Shown piece after piece: positions 4,354 through 24,062 of a DNA stretch of 62,622 nt. The stretch is from Eubacterium sp. (lineage in GTDB: Bacteria; Bacillota; Clostridia; Lachnospirales; Lachnospiraceae): contig JAFVGA010000010.1 of NCBI GenBank assembly GCA_017475235.1, positions 1 through 62,622 of the forward strand, read 5' to 3'. Made by a program: the position numbers and the translations under genes. A model generated the notes under the pieces. That model was not told the origin of the DNA and searched no databases. It saw nothing but the letters and a program-made list of their open reading frames with translations. Every line of letters begins with the position of its first letter. The stretch's first letter is position 1.

Positions 4354-4616
4354 TCGCGCAACCGGGGAGGTAGCGGAGCCCTATACCTGAAACCCGCTTT
4401 AGCAGGGGCTATGGTTTGCCTCGGGATTGAATGGTAAGGCTGCCCTTTATAAGCGATGTTGACGTTTGGGTCTTATGCATTGGAGCTCTGTGAACCGTGT
4501 CAGGTCAGGAATGAAGCAGCACTAAGTAGATGTCTTCCAAGTGACATAAGGTAGCCTAGACCGAGTTGGCTGTAAAGGTAACGCTTATGATTCACTCACA
4601 AAGCAGACCGCGCGAT
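4354..4616 (+). ncRNA. ffs: Signal recognition particle RNA, large bacterial type
   Basis: An RNA of about 263 nt with closing ends TCGCGC (4354-4359) and GCGCGA (4610-4615). The Ffh-binding domain IV is recognisable as GTGTCAGGTCAGGAATGAAG, followed by CAGCAC, with the loop and asymmetric internal loop typical of bacterial SRP RNA. The length implies the large form with an Alu domain, as in Bacillus and clostridia. It has its own promoter and terminator. It does not code for protein, although an open frame crosses it. Confidence 0.93.
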
Positions 4617-4790: not shown

Positions 4791-6398
4791 ATGTCTTATC
4801 AAGCTTTATATAGAAAATTTAGACCTAATACTTTCGAGGAAGTTAAGGGACAAGACCACATAGTGACAACGCTCAAAAATCAGATTAAAGCTGAGCGAAT
4901 TGGTCACGCGTTTCTTTTCTGTGGAACAAGAGGAACAGGTAAAACTAGTGTGGCTAAAATTTTAGCTCGCGCAGTTAACTGTGAAAATCCAGTGGACGGA
5001 AGCCCTTGTGGAGAATGCGAGACTTGTAAAGCAAACGAGGGTGGAGTAGCTCCAAACATCATTGAGATGGATGCCGCTTCTAACAACGGTGTAGATGATG
5101 TTAGACAAATCATAGAAGAAATTCAGTACTCACCTACAGTGGGTAAATATACAGTATATATTATTGACGAGGTACATATGTTGTCTGGCCCAGCCTTCAA
5201 CGCTTTGTTGAAGACTCTAGAGGAACCACCAGCATATGTTATTTTTATACTTGCAACTACTGAACCTCACAAGATTCCAGTTACAATTCTTTCGAGATGT
5301 CAGAGATATGACTTCAAGCGAATCTCAATCGAGACTATCGTTGATCGTCTAAAAGAGTTGATGGACAAAGAAGGAATCAGTGTGGATGATAAAGCACTTC
5401 GCTATATCGCGAAAGCTGCTGATGGTTCAATGCGTGACGCACTAAGTCTACTTGACCAGTGCATCGCTTTCTACACAGACCAAGAACTTACATATGAAAA
5501 GGTATTGGAAGTTTTGGGAGCGGTAGATCAAGAAGTATTCAGTCGTTTGACTAGATGCATTATCCAAGGTGATGTTGCAAACAGCATGAAGATTTTGGAC
5601 GAAGTTGTTATTAAAGGTCGCGAACTAAGTCAGTTTGTAAACGACTTCATTTGGTACCTCAGAAACCTCATGCTCGTCAAAGGCTCCGAAGATGCCATGG
5701 AAGTAATCGACGCTCCAATGGAGAGAATCGAAGCACTTAAACAAGAATCAGAAATGATAGACACAGAAAGTGTCATGAGATATATAAGAGTTCTATCGGA
5801 AACATCTGCTCAAATCAAATATTCTGACCAGAAGAGAGTATTGCTTGAGATTGCTCTTATCAAACTTAACACTCCAGCTATGGAGAATGACTATGAATCA
5901 ATCGTCAATAGAATTTCAGTTTTGGAAAACAAAATTGAAAGTGGAAATATAAAAGTGGAAGCTCCAGTTAGAAGAGCAAACGCCGAAGTAATTTCAAATG
6001 GAAATCCTGTTCCAGAGGAGCCAGCAGATGAGCCTGCTCCAGAACCAGTTGAAGAGGACCCAGTTGAAAAGGCTGTACCAGAGGATGTTCAGTATGTAGC
6101 TGACAATTGGAATATGGTTCTAAACAAAATGAATCCTTTGGAGAAGGCGAACTTCAAAAAGGTTTCACTTGCGGTTAAGGGTGAGGATACATTGCTCATT
6201 GTCTTCGGCCCGGACGACATTATGTATGACCACTGTAATACAATCGAGGTTATAGAAATGGTTAACACAATCATTCGCGAGCAAGTGAAAAAAGACGTTC
6301 AAGTTGAAATGACACAGATGAAACCAAATCAAGACGACAATTATTTTCAGATGATTACATCTAAAATAAATCTAGATATCGAGGAGGAAGATTTTTAA
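4791..6398 (+). CDS. dnaX: DNA polymerase III gamma/tau clamp-loader subunit
   Basis: A 535-residue AAA+ clamp-loader subunit that loads the sliding clamp at replication forks. The Walker A motif is G45TRGTGKTS53, a four-cysteine zinc module follows ([16 protein letters not shown]), Walker B is [11 protein letters not shown], and the sensor/SRC motif is LSRCQRYDF. The C-terminal part (about 375-535) has an acidic, proline-rich hinge (about 400-425) before a tau-type domain. The stop overlaps the next ATG by one base (TAATG). No obvious slippery A-stretch for gamma production was noticed. Confidence 0.96.
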
Positions 6399-6742
6399 TG
6401 GCTAAGAAAGGTGGATTCCCAGGCGGCGGAGGAATGCCAGCCAACATGGGAAATTTAATGAAACAAGCTCAGAAGATGCAGCAGCAGATGCAAGAGGCAC
6501 AGGAAGAGTTAGAGGCTAGCGAGTTTACAGCATCAGCAGGTGGCGGAGTGGTAGAAGTTACCGTGAGCGGAAATAAAGAAATCAAAAACATTAAGATAGA
6601 TCCAGACGTTGTGGATCCAGAAGATGTGGAGACACTAGAGGATTTAGTGACAGCAGCAGTTAATGAAGCTATCAGAAAAATGGAAGAGCAGACCCAGGAA
6701 GAAATGTCAAAGATTACTGGCGGAATGGGCGGCTTATTCTAA
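6398..6742 (+). CDS. ybaB: YbaB/EbfC nucleoid-associated protein
   Basis: A 114-residue DNA-binding protein of the YbaB/EbfC family, usually encoded between dnaX and recR as here. A glycine/methionine-rich start ([20 protein letters not shown]) leads into the coiled-coil helix [17 protein letters not shown], then the strand [18 protein letters not shown]. The family forms tweezer-like dimers; the cellular role is incompletely known. Confidence 0.94.
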
Positions 6743-16623: not shown

Positions 16624-16666
16624 AATAAGATTAGTCAATAAAACTTGACTAATCTTATTTTATTTG
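16624..16666 (+). terminator. Terminator after the secreted protein gene
   Basis: AATAAGATTAGTCAA (16624-16638) pairs with TTGACTAATCTTATT (16645-16659), followed by TTATTTG. The 3' arm also supplies the TTGACT -35 of leuA. Confidence 0.85.
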
Positions 16667-16673: not shown

Positions 16674-16731
16674 TATGTGTAATATGAGTCAATTTAACTG
16701 ACAAATATTATTACAAAAGAGAGGTAACATT

Positions 16732-18720
16732 ATGGAAAATTTCAAAAAGTACAAAAGACAATACTTTATGCCACCAGAAGCTACGTACGACTGGGTAAAG
16801 AAGGAGTATATTGAAGAGGCTCCTATTTGGTGTAGCGTAGATTTGCGTGATGGTAACCAAGCACTTATCGAGCCAATGAGTCTTGATGAGAAGTTGGAGT
16901 TTTTCCAGTTACTGGTAGATATAGGATTCAAAGAGATTGAAGTTGGATTCCCAGCAGCTTCTCAGACAGAGTATGACTTTATGCGTGCTTTGATTGAGAG
17001 AAATATGATCCCTGACGATGTGACTGTTCAAGTTCTTACTCAGGCTAGAGAGCACATCATTAAAAAGACCTTCGAAGCGGTCAAGGGTGCTAAACATGCT
17101 GTAATCCATCTTTACAATTCAACATCTGTTGCTCAGAGAGAGCAGGTGTTTAAGAAAAGTAAGGAAGAGATTAAGCAGATCGCTGTGGATGGAGCAGAAC
17201 TTCTAAACAAGTTGGCTTCAGAAGTGGATGGTAACTTCTCGTTTGAATACTCTCCAGAGAGTTTCCCTGGTACTGAGGTTGATTACGCGTTGGAAGTGTG
17301 TAACGCAGTGCTTGATGTGTGGAAACCAAAGAAAGAGAATAAAGTAATCATTAACATTCCGGCAACAGTTGAGAATGCTATGCCTCACGTGTTTGCAACA
17401 CAAGTTGAGTATATGCACAAACACTTGAAGTACAGAGATGCAGTTACTATTTCAGTTCACCCTCACAATGACAGAGGTTGTGGTGTGGCTACTGCAGAGC
17501 TTTCAGTACTTGCTGGAGCGGATAGAATAGAAGGAACACTTTTCGGAAACGGAGAGCGTACAGGTAACGTTGATATAGTTACACTTGCTATGAATATGTT
17601 CTCACACGGTGTAGATCCAAAGCTAGACTTTAGTGATATGCCTAAAATCTGTGAGCTATACGAGCGTGTTACTCGTATGCAGGTTGGCCCTCGTCAACCA
17701 TACGCAGGCGAACTTGTATTTACAGCATTTTCTGGTTCTCACCAAGACGCCATCGCCAAAGGCATGGCTTGCCGTGATGCAGACCCAGAAGGCAAGTGGA
17801 ATGTTCCTTATCTTCCAATCGACCCAGTAGATGTTGGAAGAACTTACGATTCAGACGTAATCAGAATCAACTCTCAGTCTGGTAAGGGCGGAGTTAGTTA
17901 CGTTCTTAAACAAAACTATGGCCTTTCAATTCCTCAAGAAATGCGAGAGGAAGTTGGCTATATGATTAAGGATGTTTCTGATAAAGAACACGCTGAACTT
18001 TCACCTGAGACAATCTATCGAATCTTTGAGGATAAGTATGTGAACAACACATCAGTATTTGCGGTTCCTGAAGTCCACTTCAAACAGACACGCGGAATCA
18101 CTTCAGATGTGACATTGGTTTACAAGGACAAGAAGCGTGTCATTAAGAGCACAGGTAACGGAAGACTTGATGCGGTAAGTAACGCATTCAAATCTTTCTT
18201 TGATATAAGTTACGAACTTTCATTCTACGAAGAGCACTCACTTTCTCGTGGGTCTTCGTCGAAGGCGGTTTCATACGTAGGCATCAGCTGCAACGGAACA
18301 ATGTTCTGGGGCGTTGGCATAGATGAGGATATTATCAAGTCATCAATCAACGCTTTGACTTCAGCGGTTAACCAGTATGTGGCTACATTGAAAGACAAAG
18401 ATGATCAAGATGAGAGACTAACTGAGATTCTAAACTACATTAATACAAATTACTTGAGTGTAACTCTAGATGAATTAGCTGAGGAGTTTGAACTTTCAAA
18501 GACATATCTTTCGAAGTATATTAAGGATAAGTCTGGCAAGACCTTCGGCGATATCGTGACTAACGTGCGAATGAAGAAGGCTAGAGCGATGCTTAAGAGT
18601 GGCAACAAGAATGTTGAGACAATTGCACACGAGGTTGGATATCAGAACGTTGAAAACTTCACTAGAACTTTCAAGAAGAAGTACGGTATGACACCAGTGC
18701 AGTTTAGAAATTCTAAGTAG
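16732..18720 (+). CDS. leuA: 2-isopropylmalate synthase fused to an AraC-type DNA-binding domain
   Basis: A 662-residue two-part protein. Residues 1 to about 550 are a full long-type LeuA that condenses acetyl-CoA with 2-ketoisovalerate in leucine synthesis. The metal/substrate motif is [12 protein letters not shown], followed by [27 protein letters not shown] and [10 protein letters not shown]. The C-terminal leucine-regulatory domain is recognisable at [18 protein letters not shown]. Residues about 560-662 are a complete two-helix-turn-helix AraC domain: [20 protein letters not shown], then [20 protein letters not shown] and [11 protein letters not shown]. The junction has no stop or internal start signal. 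Ordinary LeuA ends near 560 residues, so this is a real extension. It probably makes a leucine-responsive regulator that is also the enzyme; that is inference. No leuBCD genes are adjacent. Confidence 0.93.
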
Positions 18721-20360: not shown

Positions 20361-21191
20361 TTATAAGCTTTTCAATAAATATGGAATTTCACTTTCGAAA
20401 TTAACACCGTATGTAATAGCATTAGGATCTTCAAAAGTATTCTGAATAGCCGCTCTAGTAAAATCAGCAGCCACCTTAAGCGCATCGTAGATTGACTTGT
20501 CATTCATCACCGCACCTGTGAACGTACTAGCAAAAACATCACCAGTACCGTGTGACTTCATATCAACCTTGTCGTTTCCATAGCTGTAGAATTCACCTTT
20601 CTCAGTGTCGTATCCCATAAAACCAAACTTGCCGTCGCCCAATTCCACACCAGTTATAACTGCGTGCTTTGGACCGAGTTCAGCTAGTTTAAGTAGAAGA
20701 GCCTGAACCTGCTCGATACTTGCATCTTCTCCTGGATAGTCAACCCCCAGCATTAATGACGCTTCAGAAATGTTAGGTAAAATCACGTCAGCCTTTGAAC
20801 ATAGCTTGGCCATTTCTTTGGCGAAGTCTTCGTCAAAGCCCACATACAACTTTCCATTATCCGCCATAGCTGGATCCATTACGATTAAGTTTTCATCGTC
20901 TCCAAATGTGTCGAAGTAGTCCGCCACAATATCTATCTGCCTCTTTGAACCTAGGTAACCAGTATATATAGCGTCAAATTTGAAATCTTCTTTTTGCCAA
21001 TGCTCCTTGATAGGCTCCATATCATCTGTCAAATCACGGAATGTGAAATCGTTGAATTGTGTGTGAGTAGAAAGAACGGCAGTAGGAACTATCGCGCATT
21101 CTACACCCATCGCTGAAATGATAGGAAGTGCCACCGTCAGTGAACATTTACCTACACAAGATACATCTTGAATACTCATCACTCGTTTCAT
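20361..21191 (-). CDS. Pyridoxamine/pyridoxal kinase (PfkB-like, PdxY/PdxK type)
   Basis: A 276-residue ribokinase-fold kinase that phosphorylates vitamin B6 vitamers in PLP salvage. The N-terminus VMSIQDVSCVGKCSLTVALP and the segment VLSTHTQFNDFTF resemble pyridoxal kinases. The ATP/anion-hole motif is SHGTGDVFASTFTGA, whose Asp is the catalytic base. SD AAAGGAG precedes the start. The gene diverges from a MocR/PdxR-type regulator, which supports a B6 role. Hydroxymethylpyrimidine kinase is the nearest alternative. Confidence 0.87.
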   Translation of the reverse strand: MKRVMSIQDVSCVGKCSLTVALPIISAMGVECAIVPTAVLSTHTQFNDFTFRDLTDDMEPIKEHWQKEDFKFDAIYTGYLGSKRQIDIVADYFDTFGDDENLIVMDPAMADNGKLYVGFDEDFAKEMAKLCSKADVILPNISEASLMLGVDYPGEDASIEQVQALLLKLAELGPKHAVITGVELGDGKFGFMGYDTEKGEFYSYGNDKVDMKSHGTGDVFASTFTGAVMNDKSIYDALKVAADFTRAAIQNTFEDPNAITYGVNFESEIPYLLKSL

Positions 21192-21285: not shown

Positions 21286-21299
21286 AGGTGAAGAGGGCT

Positions 21300-24062
21300 A
21301 TGTTAACTTATGATTTCTCATCGAGGGGTAAAACTCCTATGTATGAGTACTTGTACAATTGCATAAGAGACGATATTCTTTCGGGCAAGATTAAGGCCGA
21401 TGAGAAGTTGCCATCCAAGCGTGAGATGGCTTCTAATCATGGAATCAGTATTATCACTGTGCAGAATGCCTACGATCAGCTTGTGGTCGAGGGCTATATT
21501 TACGCTGTGGAGAAGAAGGGTTACTTTGCATCGGAAGTGGAGGCTAACTTTACGGAACCTTCGCCAAAGAACATGCCAACCCACAAGAAAAAGGAAGCCC
21601 CAAAGCCACTAGTGGACTTTTCATCAAACCATATAATGTATGACAGTTTTCCATTCAACACTTGGTCGAAGATTATGAGAAGGACTATCGCAGACAGCGA
21701 GCAAGATTTCCTCGCGAGTCCAAACCATGCAGGGGTGGAAGACTTGAGAGTTGCTATAGCAAACCACTTGGCGGACTTTCGTGGTATGCAAGTTAATCCA
21801 GACAATATCGTGGTGGGAGCTGGAATGGAATATCTTTACGGACTAATCGTTCAGCTTCTTGGAAAGAACCACATGATTGCGATAGAAGATCCAGGGCACA
21901 AGAAAGTAGGAAGTGTGTATGAGAGCAACGGTGTTAAGTGCATTCCAATTCCAGTAAAGGAAGATGGAATTGACCTAGAAACTTTGAAGGAGACTAAGGC
22001 CAAGGTAGTTCATTTATCACCATCACACCATTTCCCAACTGGATGTGTGATGCCTATTAACAATAGAACAAAACTATTAGAACTTATGAACAAAAACCAC
22101 GGCTATGTGATTGAGGATGATTATGACAGCGAGTTTAGGTTCAAGGGAAAACCACTGCCAACGCTCCAAAGTTTGAATCCAGATAAAGTTATTTACCTAA
22201 ATACTTTTTCAAAGACTTTGGCGCCGTCCATTCGTATCGCGTATATGGTGCTTCCAGATGTATTGATGAAAGTGTTTGACGAGAAGCTATCTTTTTACTC
22301 GAGTACTGTTTCAAGTTTTGATCAGTATACTTTGGCGAAGTTTATTTCAGATGGATATTATTCAAGGCACATCAACAGGATGCGCAACTACTATAAAAAC
22401 TATCGAAAAGTCATTATGGACGAGCTTAAAAACTCGAAACTTAAAGATAGGATAAAGATTAGGGAGGCATCATCTGGACTTCACTTCATTCTAGAAATCG
22501 ACTTGAAAGTGGACGACAAAGAATTCCTCCAAGCACTAGAAAAGAATGGCATAAAACTAAAGAGTGTTTCAAATTATTGCTATCAGAAAACTAATAGATA
22601 CAAACATCAATTTATAATCAACTATTCGGCGGTGGAAGAGGACAAACTAAACGAGGCATTTGAAATTATCAATAAGGAAGTAAACAAGTACTCAAATGAA
22701 AAGAAGGTGAAAAAGATTAACGCATCAAAACTTCATATTGAACTTCCAGACAGTGTTAAGAAAATCATATCCATCTTGTATAAAGAAGGGTATGAGGCCT
22801 TTGCCGTGGGCGGATGTGTGCGTGATTCAATCTTACAGAGAAACCCAGACGACTGGGATATTACCACATCAGCTAAGCCTGAGGATGTGAAGCGAATCTT
22901 TAACCGTACTTTCGACACAGGTATCGAGCATGGAACTGTGACAGTCCGTATGGGAGGCGAGTCTTATGAGGTTACGACTTACAGAATTGAGGGTGAGTAC
23001 AAAGATTCGAGACATCCAGAGTCAGTTGAGTTTACTTCAGACTTGCGAGAAGACTTGATGCGTCGTGACTTTACGATAAACGCTATGGCCTACAACGACA
23101 AAGTAGGACTAGTGGACGAATTCAATGGCATCAAAGATTTACAAAACAAAACTATTAGATGTGTGGGAGATCCGAAAGAGCGTTTTGGCGAGGACGCGCT
23201 TAGAATTCTAAGGGCAGTTCGTTTTGCAGCACAACTTGGATTCGAAATAGATAAAAAGACAGAAGAAGCGATGAAGGAACTTGCACCAAACCTACAAAAC
23301 ATAAGTGCAGAGCGCATCCAGACAGAACTAGAGAAACTGATTATGTCAGATAATCCTGGAATGTTTATGAAGGCATTCGAACTTGGAATCACAAAAGAGA
23401 TTATTCCAGAGTTCGACAGACTTATGGAGCAGGAGCAACGCTCAATCTACCATGACCACAACGTGGGCGAGCACACAATCAAGGTTATGGAGAGTGTCCG
23501 CAAGGATAGAATCTTAAGATGGACTGCGCTACTTCACGACATCACAAAGCCTGACGAATTGACCGTGGACGAGGATGGATACCATCACTTCAAAGACCAC
23601 CCAAACTCGGGCGCGGAGAAGGCAAAGGAAATCATGAAGCGCCTCAAGATGGACAATAAGACTATCAGGTCGGTTTATCATGTAATCCTACATCATGATG
23701 ATAGACCATACTCACTGGATCCTGAGACAATCAGGCGAAGTGTCCACGAGATCGGCAAAGACTATTACGATTACTTCATCGAATTCAGCTACGCAGACTA
23801 TATGGGCAAGAGTGAATACGCTAGAGAAGTAGGATTTCCAATGCTCAAGTACTGCAAGGAGCAGTTTGAAATTATAAAAGAGAAGGGCTATGCCACAAGC
23901 ATTAAGGAACTGGATATCACCGGACAGGACCTAATTAAGATGGGAGTGGAGCCGGGGGAAAAGATAGGAGAAATCCTAGAAAAACTCCTCGACAAAGTCC
24001 TATCAGACCCAGAATTAAACTACCACGAAAAACTAGTAAAAATAGCCGAAAAAATGCTATAA
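21300..24062 (+). CDS. MocR/PdxR-type regulator fused to CCA tRNA nucleotidyltransferase with HD domain
   Basis: A 920-residue protein from ATG 21300 (an in-frame GTG at 21288 is the alternative). Residues about 5-75 are a GntR winged helix (KLPSKREMASNHGISIITVQ). Residues about 105-465 are a fold-type I aminotransferase domain with the PLP lysine K305 in NTFSKTLAPSIRIAYM. Residues about 476-920 are a class II CCA-adding enzyme: GGCVRDSILQRNPDDWDITT (GG and D-x-D), RRDFTINAMAY and ILRAVRFAAQLGFEID. An HD domain follows (LLHDITKP, HHDDRPYSLD). The two halves are joined without a stop. A GTG at 22707 sits too close to the purine-rich AAGAAG to be a good internal start. The regulator half probably controls the divergent B6 kinase; the tRNA half repairs or adds 3' CCA. 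Confidence 0.9.
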   Translation: MLTYDFSSRGKTPMYEYLYNCIRDDILSGKIKADEKLPSKREMASNHGISIITVQNAYDQLVVEGYIYAVEKKGYFASEVEANFTEPSPKNMPTHKKKEAPKPLVDFSSNHIMYDSFPFNTWSKIMRRTIADSEQDFLASPNHAGVEDLRVAIANHLADFRGMQVNPDNIVVGAGMEYLYGLIVQLLGKNHMIAIEDPGHKKVGSVYESNGVKCIPIPVKEDGIDLETLKETKAKVVHLSPSHHFPTGCVMPINNRTKLLELMNKNHGYVIEDDYDSEFRFKGKPLPTLQSLNPDKVIYLNTFSKTLAPSIRIAYMVLPDVLMKVFDEKLSFYSSTVSSFDQYTLAKFISDGYYSRHINRMRNYYKNYRKVIMDELKNSKLKDRIKIREASSGLHFILEIDLKVDDKEFLQALEKNGIKLKSVSNYCYQKTNRYKHQFIINYSAVEEDKLNEAFEIINKEVNKYSNEKKVKKINASKLHIELPDSVKKIISILYKEGYEAFAVGGCVRDSILQRNPDDWDITTSAKPEDVKRIFNRTFDTGIEHGTVTVRMGGESYEVTTYRIEGEYKDSRHPESVEFTSDLREDLMRRDFTINAMAYNDKVGLVDEFNGIKDLQNKTIRCVGDPKERFGEDALRILRAVRFAAQLGFEIDKKTEEAMKELAPNLQNISAERIQTELEKLIMSDNPGMFMKAFELGITKEIIPEFDRLMEQEQRSIYHDHNVGEHTIKVMESVRKDRILRWTALLHDITKPDELTVDEDGYHHFKDHPNSGAEKAKEIMKRLKMDNKTIRSVYHVILHHDDRPYSLDPETIRRSVHEIGKDYYDYFIEFSYADYMGKSEYAREVGFPMLKYCKEQFEIIKEKGYATSIKELDITGQDLIKMGVEPGEKIGEILEKLLDKVLSDPELNYHEKLVKIAEKML

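Follow-up and report, generated by a model that had tools for sequence, protein, structure and literature searches.

Does the leuA gene on this Eubacterium sp. contig (JAFVGA010000010.1) encode an enzyme and a transcription factor in a single chain, and if so, what is the DNA-binding part for? In the whole stretch of DNA analysed here, 62,622 nucleotides long and called the window below, a preliminary description had recognised an intact long-type LeuA fused to a complete AraC-type domain. Searching AraC (HTH_18) and LeuA profiles, as that description had proposed, gave matches to both in the same 662-aa frame, which is stop-free and has every domain above its Pfam cut-off (Table 1). The HMGL-like, IPMS_D2 and LeuA_dimer domains are present in that order, all over their curated cut-offs, and are followed by HTH_18 (residues 582-660, 76.3 bits for a cut-off of 33.6) and HTH_AraC (residues 621-660, 51.2 bits for a cut-off of 26.6). 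The C-terminal part has what defines an AraC/XylS domain, i.e. some 100 residues with two HTH units over the Pfam cut-off, and its helices are present in the structure model. The sequence AGAGG at 16720-16724 precedes the ATG. The best NCBIfam model for the protein is 2-isopropylmalate synthase NF002991/PRK03739 (815 bits, cut-off 455), and general family models name it just a synthase.

Table 1. Coordinates of the features in the window
Feature	Position	Strand	Remarks
Bacterial large signal recognition particle RNA	4354..4615	+	Rfam, 154.5 bits
Putative operator, clade-specific: perfect 10-bp inverted repeat GATTAGTCAA-N6-TTGACTAATC	16629..16654		comparison within clade
Putative extended -10 (TGTG TAATAT), TGTGTAATAT	16676..16685	+	by comparison with the 28-locus promoter alignment
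Second GTCA...TGAC element, possible second operator	16688..16702		just downstream of -10, before start codon, kept in clade
leuA-AraC fusion gene	16732..18720	+	single open frame, ATG start, 662 aa plus stop
HMGL-like catalytic domain, residues 31-307	16822..17652	+	Pfam, 246 bits
IPMS_D2 domain, residues 327-393	17710..17910	+	Pfam, 113 bits
LeuA_dimer leucine-regulatory domain, residues 422-549	17995..18378	+	Pfam, 85 bits; AlphaFold2 model
Linker, residues 550-561	18379..18414	+	pN/pS 0.68; pLDDT <50 at 555-558
AraC-type DNA-binding domain HTH_18, residues 582-660	18475..18711	+	Pfam; recognition helices modelled at 590-601, 640-651
Phosphomethylpyrimidine/pyridoxal-type kinase gene (PF08543)	20361..21191	-	divergent from the PdxR-CCA gene
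PdxR-CCA gene	21288..24062	+	924-aa frame, PdxR/MocR-type regulator (540 bits) joined to CCA tRNA nucleotidyltransferase

The enzyme part appears to be preserved. Residues R39, D40, E176, H243, H245, N279, H337 and Y360 align, in the alignment with 1sr9, with eight residues of Mycobacterium tuberculosis LeuA (R80, D81, E218, H285, H287, N321, H379 and Y410), which we take to be its catalytic and metal residues, and all eight positions were invariant among 38 sequences. No second LeuA was found in the window's own genome, a 1.45-Mb bin that is 76% complete.

The fusion is neither a frameshift nor an assembly chimera, because the same stop-free full-length frame recurs in 21 of the 22 other genomes of the window's genus (the gene of the 22nd, G001, ends at a contig edge) as well as in 90 or more of the 397 Lachnospiraceae genomes sampled (80 genera), where LeuA_dimer and HTH lie in one stop-free frame. 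This family count takes the listed rows that extend to model position 359 or beyond, and weaker ones may be absent. These full-length homologues are free of the stop or frameshift near residue 555 on which the preliminary description would have given up the fusion, and the list of other genomes that it called for shows an architecture common in Lachnospiraceae, not a lone oddity. A genome of another genus, G023, has a full-length fusion frame at 73% identity. Named carriers include Schaedlerella arabinosiphila, Mediterraneibacter glycyrrhizinilyticus, Butyrivibrio proteoclasticus, Lachnobacterium bovis and Suipraeoptans intestinalis, and fused genes make up 31 of the best 80 matches in the named set. 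Wider samples gave at least 50 full-length rows among 392 genomes of the order, all listed ones being Lachnospiraceae, 13 passing E 1e-110 among 391 genomes of the class, three of them outside the family (G807, G941 and G943), and four among 398 genomes of the phylum, one of them outside the family (G1377). These four outlying genes may reflect transfer or bin contamination.

The two forms of the gene are sharply separated. Past LeuA the chain continues for 112-120 aa or for no more than 13 aa; the one exception, 35 aa, is a contig-cut gene. On a tree of 148 LeuA rows built with the HTH excluded (a quick tree with SH-aLRT support only, near-identical or cut rows having been removed beforehand), the fused/unfused label needs 5 changes, compared to a mean of 47.7 after shuffling, and the fused rows fall mostly into a single large group that includes a few unfused ones. 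As a candidate for the precursor gene pair we considered L146 of Clostridium sp. NALB_7861_8, where a separate AraC gene (5782-6486) lies 19 bp behind an unfused leuA. It was set aside: its HTH is an ordinary one (E 3e-15), and this was the only such case among 49 unfused loci.

Is the DNA-binding part maintained? Using 23 genus-level sequences and pairs with pS between 0.1 and 0.65 (29 to 82 pairs, the pair sets differing per domain), median pN/pS was lowest in the HTH (0.022), the catalytic domain (0.03) and LeuA_dimer (0.036), higher in IPMS_D2 (0.105) and by far the highest in the linker (0.68). This means that the HTH is under strong purifying selection and that the linker is weakly constrained. 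When the window is compared with the other clades of its genus, more change is seen in the HTH than in the catalytic domain (mean pN 0.146 versus 0.061), a point against the autoregulator reading given below. The recognition-helix residues Y592, S594, I597, E641, F643 and R645 are identical in 93 of 93 fused loci. An AlphaFold2 monomer model of the fusion (mean pLDDT 81.7; pTM 0.60, the relative placement of domains being unreliable) gives the HTH part as seven helices with pLDDT of about 76-90; confidence is low at 555-558 and in parts of the enzyme. The last LeuA_dimer helix reaches residue 554, leaving about 6 linker residues before the HTH part. The best Foldseek matches of the model were the LeuA structures 3hps, 1sr9 and 3fig, the latter leucine-bound, and an AraC-type structure was absent among the 50 matches listed.

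If this domain binds DNA, a site may be expected near the genes that it controls. Upstream of fused leuA genes lies a conserved element, ATCAA-N6-TGATTAA-N4-5-ATCA, which abuts the -35 position of an extended -10 promoter. A 32-bp EM motif, AAAAtA.ATCAAtaaAA.TGATTAAaTtTa.c, trained solely on 66 fused loci without T-box, scored 20 or more within 600 nt in 77 of 93 fused loci versus 1 of 90 unfused ones, the cut-off of 20 (19 for the tree-based count below) having been picked after the scores were seen. The hits comprise 53 of the 66 training loci and 24 of the 27 fused loci with a T-box, which lay outside training; two of the three misses there were recovered using 700 nt, and in these loci the element sits upstream of the T-box. 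Among unfused loci, the motif was found in none of the 67 with a T-box and in 1 of the 23 without, and in this single locus the same HTH is encoded behind leuA in a frame of its own. The top score in 915 shuffled sequences was 13 (here and below, shuffles permute single bases). Family-scan loci were the best-scoring ones, with no random draw. The duplicate loci L032, L033, L035, L052 and L053 were removed before the terminator, T-box and motif counts, and the identical pairs L025/L195, L066/L089 and L067/L068 were kept in the 93/90 count; with identical proteins counted once, the motif was present in 75 of 91 fused loci and in a single one of the 89 unfused. Half of the 16 fused misses (8) come from the window's own clade. 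Elsewhere, fused loci L061 and L038 have no recognisable site, L099 and L105 have a weak one, and the site of L080 carries an indel and is missed by the ungapped motif.

The position of the element is informative about the possible mode of action. In 28 hand-chosen loci it ends at the -35 position with near-constant spacing to the extended -10 (2 of the 28 need a one-base gap), and no conserved -35 sequence was seen in these aligned promoters. Such an arrangement fits an activator of the AraC type.

The element also follows the HTH across the tree. Counting separate-frame forms as HTH-bearing, a motif score of 19 or more was found in 79 of 87 rows with the HTH versus 0 of 60 without. The unfused L166 and L169, placed among fused rows, have neither HTH nor site, the position of L166 being unsure because of its long branch. 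All four fused genes outside Lachnospiraceae carry the motif (scores 23-38). As fused genes mostly form one tree group, much of this correlation reflects shared ancestry: supported branches offer 3 independent pairs, in which HTH and site agree in 2.9 of 3 on average (median p 0.25), and the correlation is statistically tied to descent.

Genome-wide targets were sought with a profile (R1) made of the element plus the -10, run on 25 fused genomes and on 27 without a full-length fused match. The leuA promoter was the best match in 23 of the 25 fused genomes (E 2.5e-12 to 5.6e-4), of which only G334 and G023 knowingly contributed rows to the profile; G000 and G331 gave no significant match genome-wide. 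Further matches in fused genomes were weak (E 0.0035 or higher), with the one exception of leuC in G245. Those in L222-L224, L228, L229, L277 and L278 were inspected and discarded as probable chance. A second site of the same geometry lies 5′ of leuC in 11 of 17 genomes of one Butyrivibrio-like genus, which clusters with named Butyrivibrio in the LeuA tree. None of these genomes was in motif training (G613 and G495 are near-copies), and leuC was identified by TIGR02083 in two of the 11 proteins (722 and 716 bits) and by the strings GADSHT and GSCTN in the others. These sites before leuC link the element to leucine synthesis without recourse to leuA. The preliminary description had guessed at leuA, ilv and leuBCD as targets. 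As far as predicted sites go, the guess holds for leuA in most fused genomes, but for leuC in one genus only; for ilv a single genome, G229, has a weak candidate 439 nt upstream of ilvB (E 0.010), and no wider leu/ilv regulon was found in the fused genomes scanned with the profile. By its predicted sites, leuA is the sole strong target in most of them.

Among the 27 genomes without a full-length fusion, clear matches were obtained in G099 (E 1.9e-7) and G116 (E 2.1e-4) only, both at leuA promoters, and the best match in the remaining 25 had E 0.0028. In both genomes a separate frame immediately following leuA encodes the HTH (191 and 134 bits), compared to 75-101 bits for the best AraC-like matches of eight other unfused genomes in the same search. 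In G099 the leuA and HTH frames overlap, and in G116 (L165, 1280-1700) the junction contains eight consecutive A and the HTH lies in frame -1; each arrangement was seen in one draft genome. The A8 junction possibly reflects frameshifting that yields both enzyme and enzyme-regulator, or a draft-assembly error. No further intact locus with such an HTH frame near leuA was found in 47 mostly unfused loci outside the named set.

The clade of the window departs from this scheme. Its own site scores just 11-15 on the family motif and is missed by the genome-wide profile, the best match in G000 having E 0.08 and lying elsewhere. The clade instead has a perfect inverted repeat at the corresponding promoter (Table 1). 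The sequence TTAGTCAA-N5-CTTGACTAA, with up to 2 mismatches, occurs at one place per genome in G000, G020, G003 and G016, and in G021 at the leuA place plus one two-mismatch match. This variant operator co-occurs with P591T and H642N, one change in each recognition helix, found in 7 of 7 loci of the clade versus 0 of 86 and 1 of 86 elsewhere. As this covariation is seen in one clade, we take it as supportive only.

An RNA element is the other candidate for leucine control at these loci. No T-box was detected in the window with Rfam at gathering thresholds; RF00230 T-boxes were found in 15 of 20 leuA loci submitted, a set partly chosen for terminator-like leaders. With a corrected T-box pattern, which together with Rfam superseded a first, too strict version (0 of 28 fused, 1 of 45 unfused), the pattern was absent in 65 of 92 fused loci and present in 27. 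By set, it occurred in 14 of 24, 5 of 40 and 8 of 28 fused loci (genus, family-scan and named sets), and in 3 of 4, 28 of 39 and 35 of 45 unfused ones. A home-made terminator scan within 120 nt (20 of 91 fused, 36 of 90 unfused) served as a lead only. We did not retain the idea that the fusion explains T-box loss: averaged over the 3 independent pairs, HTH and T-box change in opposite directions in 0.6, in the same direction in 0.1 and show no difference in 2.3, which makes the replacement of the T-box by the fusion only a lineage trend. In 31 of 80 fused loci with a primary site, against some 4.8 expected, a second core downstream of the -10 scores at a level that at most 2 of 50 shuffles attain; the 30 of these loci that were listed, many of them close relatives, all lack a T-box. 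Such a downstream site argues for repression rather than pure activation.

How might the fusion work? LeuA enzymes make 2-isopropylmalate and are feedback-inhibited by leucine bound in their LeuA_dimer domains, and the enzyme part would keep both the synthesis and the inhibition. The LeuA dimer would present two AraC-type domains, held about 6 residues off the last regulatory-domain helix, and the HTH pair would bind ATCA/TGAT half-sites that are separated by roughly one turn of the helix and lie next to the -35 position of the leuA promoter. The leucine-free protein would activate from this -35-edge site, which is the likeliest sign of the effect, and leucine binding would reposition the HTH pair and lower transcription. 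In some lineages without T-box, the second site downstream of the -10 would help to shut the promoter. Since the leucine-regulatory domain lies right next to the HTH, leucine sensing by the fusion is plausible, and with a matching conserved site ahead of its own gene, this LeuA with a gene-switch domain probably senses leucine and adjusts its own production. The low conservation of the linker could also mean DNA binding without leucine coupling. That enzyme and transcription factor are one chain, as had been suggested at the outset, is borne out as far as sequences can tell by the invariant catalytic residues, the purifying selection on the HTH and the putative operator that tracks it. We consider it likely that the fused LeuA is a dedicated autoregulator of leuA with leucine as its ligand, DNA binding, ligand and sign all being predictions. 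We lean slightly towards the fuller version, where the feedback domain doubles as an AraC-type ligand domain and the operator travels with it, acts in place of the T-box in many lineages, is joined by a second downstream site in some lineages without T-box, and in one genus has spread to leuC as well.

Other readings have to be weighed against autoregulation by leucine. The HTH could be a constitutive, leucine-independent autorepressor or activator that holds the level of leuA, with leucine acting on catalysis and on any T-box. A linker that is short yet poorly conserved would suit this, and the fused loci with a T-box pattern could respond to leucine via tRNA charging; the downstream second site, more frequent than in shuffles, is moreover typical of repression. 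However, throughout the fused set there is little space between the HTH and the leucine-regulatory domain, and in the majority of fused loci, where the T-box pattern is missing, some other leucine response is expected. On balance a leucine-blind HTH seems rather unlikely to us.

We give still less credit to the proposal that the element is bound by another regulator, the HTH being there for other DNA or in a structural role. The site accompanies the HTH in the fusions and also in G099 and G116, where the HTH has its own frame. Nearly all relatives without the HTH lack the site, all four fused genes from outside the family have it, and in contrast to the sites of a global regulator it is as a rule confined to leuA. 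What speaks for this improbable proposal is that G000 and G331 lack a significant family-type site in the genome scan, and that binding of the element by the HTH is itself a prediction. As for the HTH being a neutral passenger or an annotation artefact, its occurrence in another frame in G099 and G116 and its apparent loss in L166 and L169 are what one could cite, but purifying selection (pN/pS 0.02) contradicts it for the family, and a neutral passenger would hardly show a confidently modelled seven-helix domain with six recognition-helix residues identical in every fused locus. We attach next to no weight to it.

The window carries a second regulator-enzyme fusion, apparently younger than that of leuA, in the PdxR-CCA gene (Table 1). 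Among relatives, its frame is single and stop-free in G001, G003, G009 and G012, cut in G011, interrupted by stops in G004, G006, G007, G008, G010 and G013, and replaced by two neighbouring matches in G002, G005, G014 and G015. The divergent PF08543 kinase gene is a possible target of the PdxR part.

If the autoregulation by leucine is true, a large gut-bacterial family possesses a self-contained control unit comprising sensor, enzyme, switch and operator, and offers a natural case where one leucine site governs both activity and transcription. It would also allow one to study the alternation of protein control and an RNA attenuator ahead of one gene, supply a defined operator for testing, and possibly provide anaerobe research with a leucine-responsive regulator. 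No description of a LeuA-AraC fusion was found in a literature search that left out most subscription journals and all bioRxiv preprints.

With known systems, the resemblance is in each case partial. The enzyme and regulatory domain align with long-type 2-isopropylmalate synthase (M. tuberculosis LeuA 1sr9, 507 bits), but the 1sr9 chain stops at residue 644, straight after the regulatory domain, where the AraC domain follows here. A survey counts 106 types of companion domain for AraC/XylS regulators, and a word search of that main text for isopropylmalate, HMGL and LeuA gave nothing (PMC5882156). With AraC, RhaS, MarA and Rns the fusion shares the C-terminal two-HTH domain, whose PDB sequence matches include MarA 1bl0, Rns, SoxS and AraC 2k9s, and a candidate site at the -35 edge; unlike in these regulators, the companion domain is a whole biosynthetic enzyme. 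Like the T-box leaders of leuA, it would place leucine-pathway control ahead of leuA, but the T-box is an RNA element that reads tRNA charging. The trigger enzymes PutA, BirA and NadR have catalytic and DNA-binding parts in one chain and control their own pathway. PutA is presented as such an enzyme-regulator in PMC9132996. Like them, the fused LeuA has its enzyme and DNA-binding parts in a single chain, both under selection, with own-pathway control being predicted here. Enzyme-regulator fusions are therefore already known as a kind, of which LeuA-AraC is a variant without description found. It differs from PutA, BirA and NadR in both its enzyme and its DNA-binding fold, and it stands apart from them by having a biosynthetic feedback enzyme as the presumed sensor and, mostly, a single predicted target at its own promoter.
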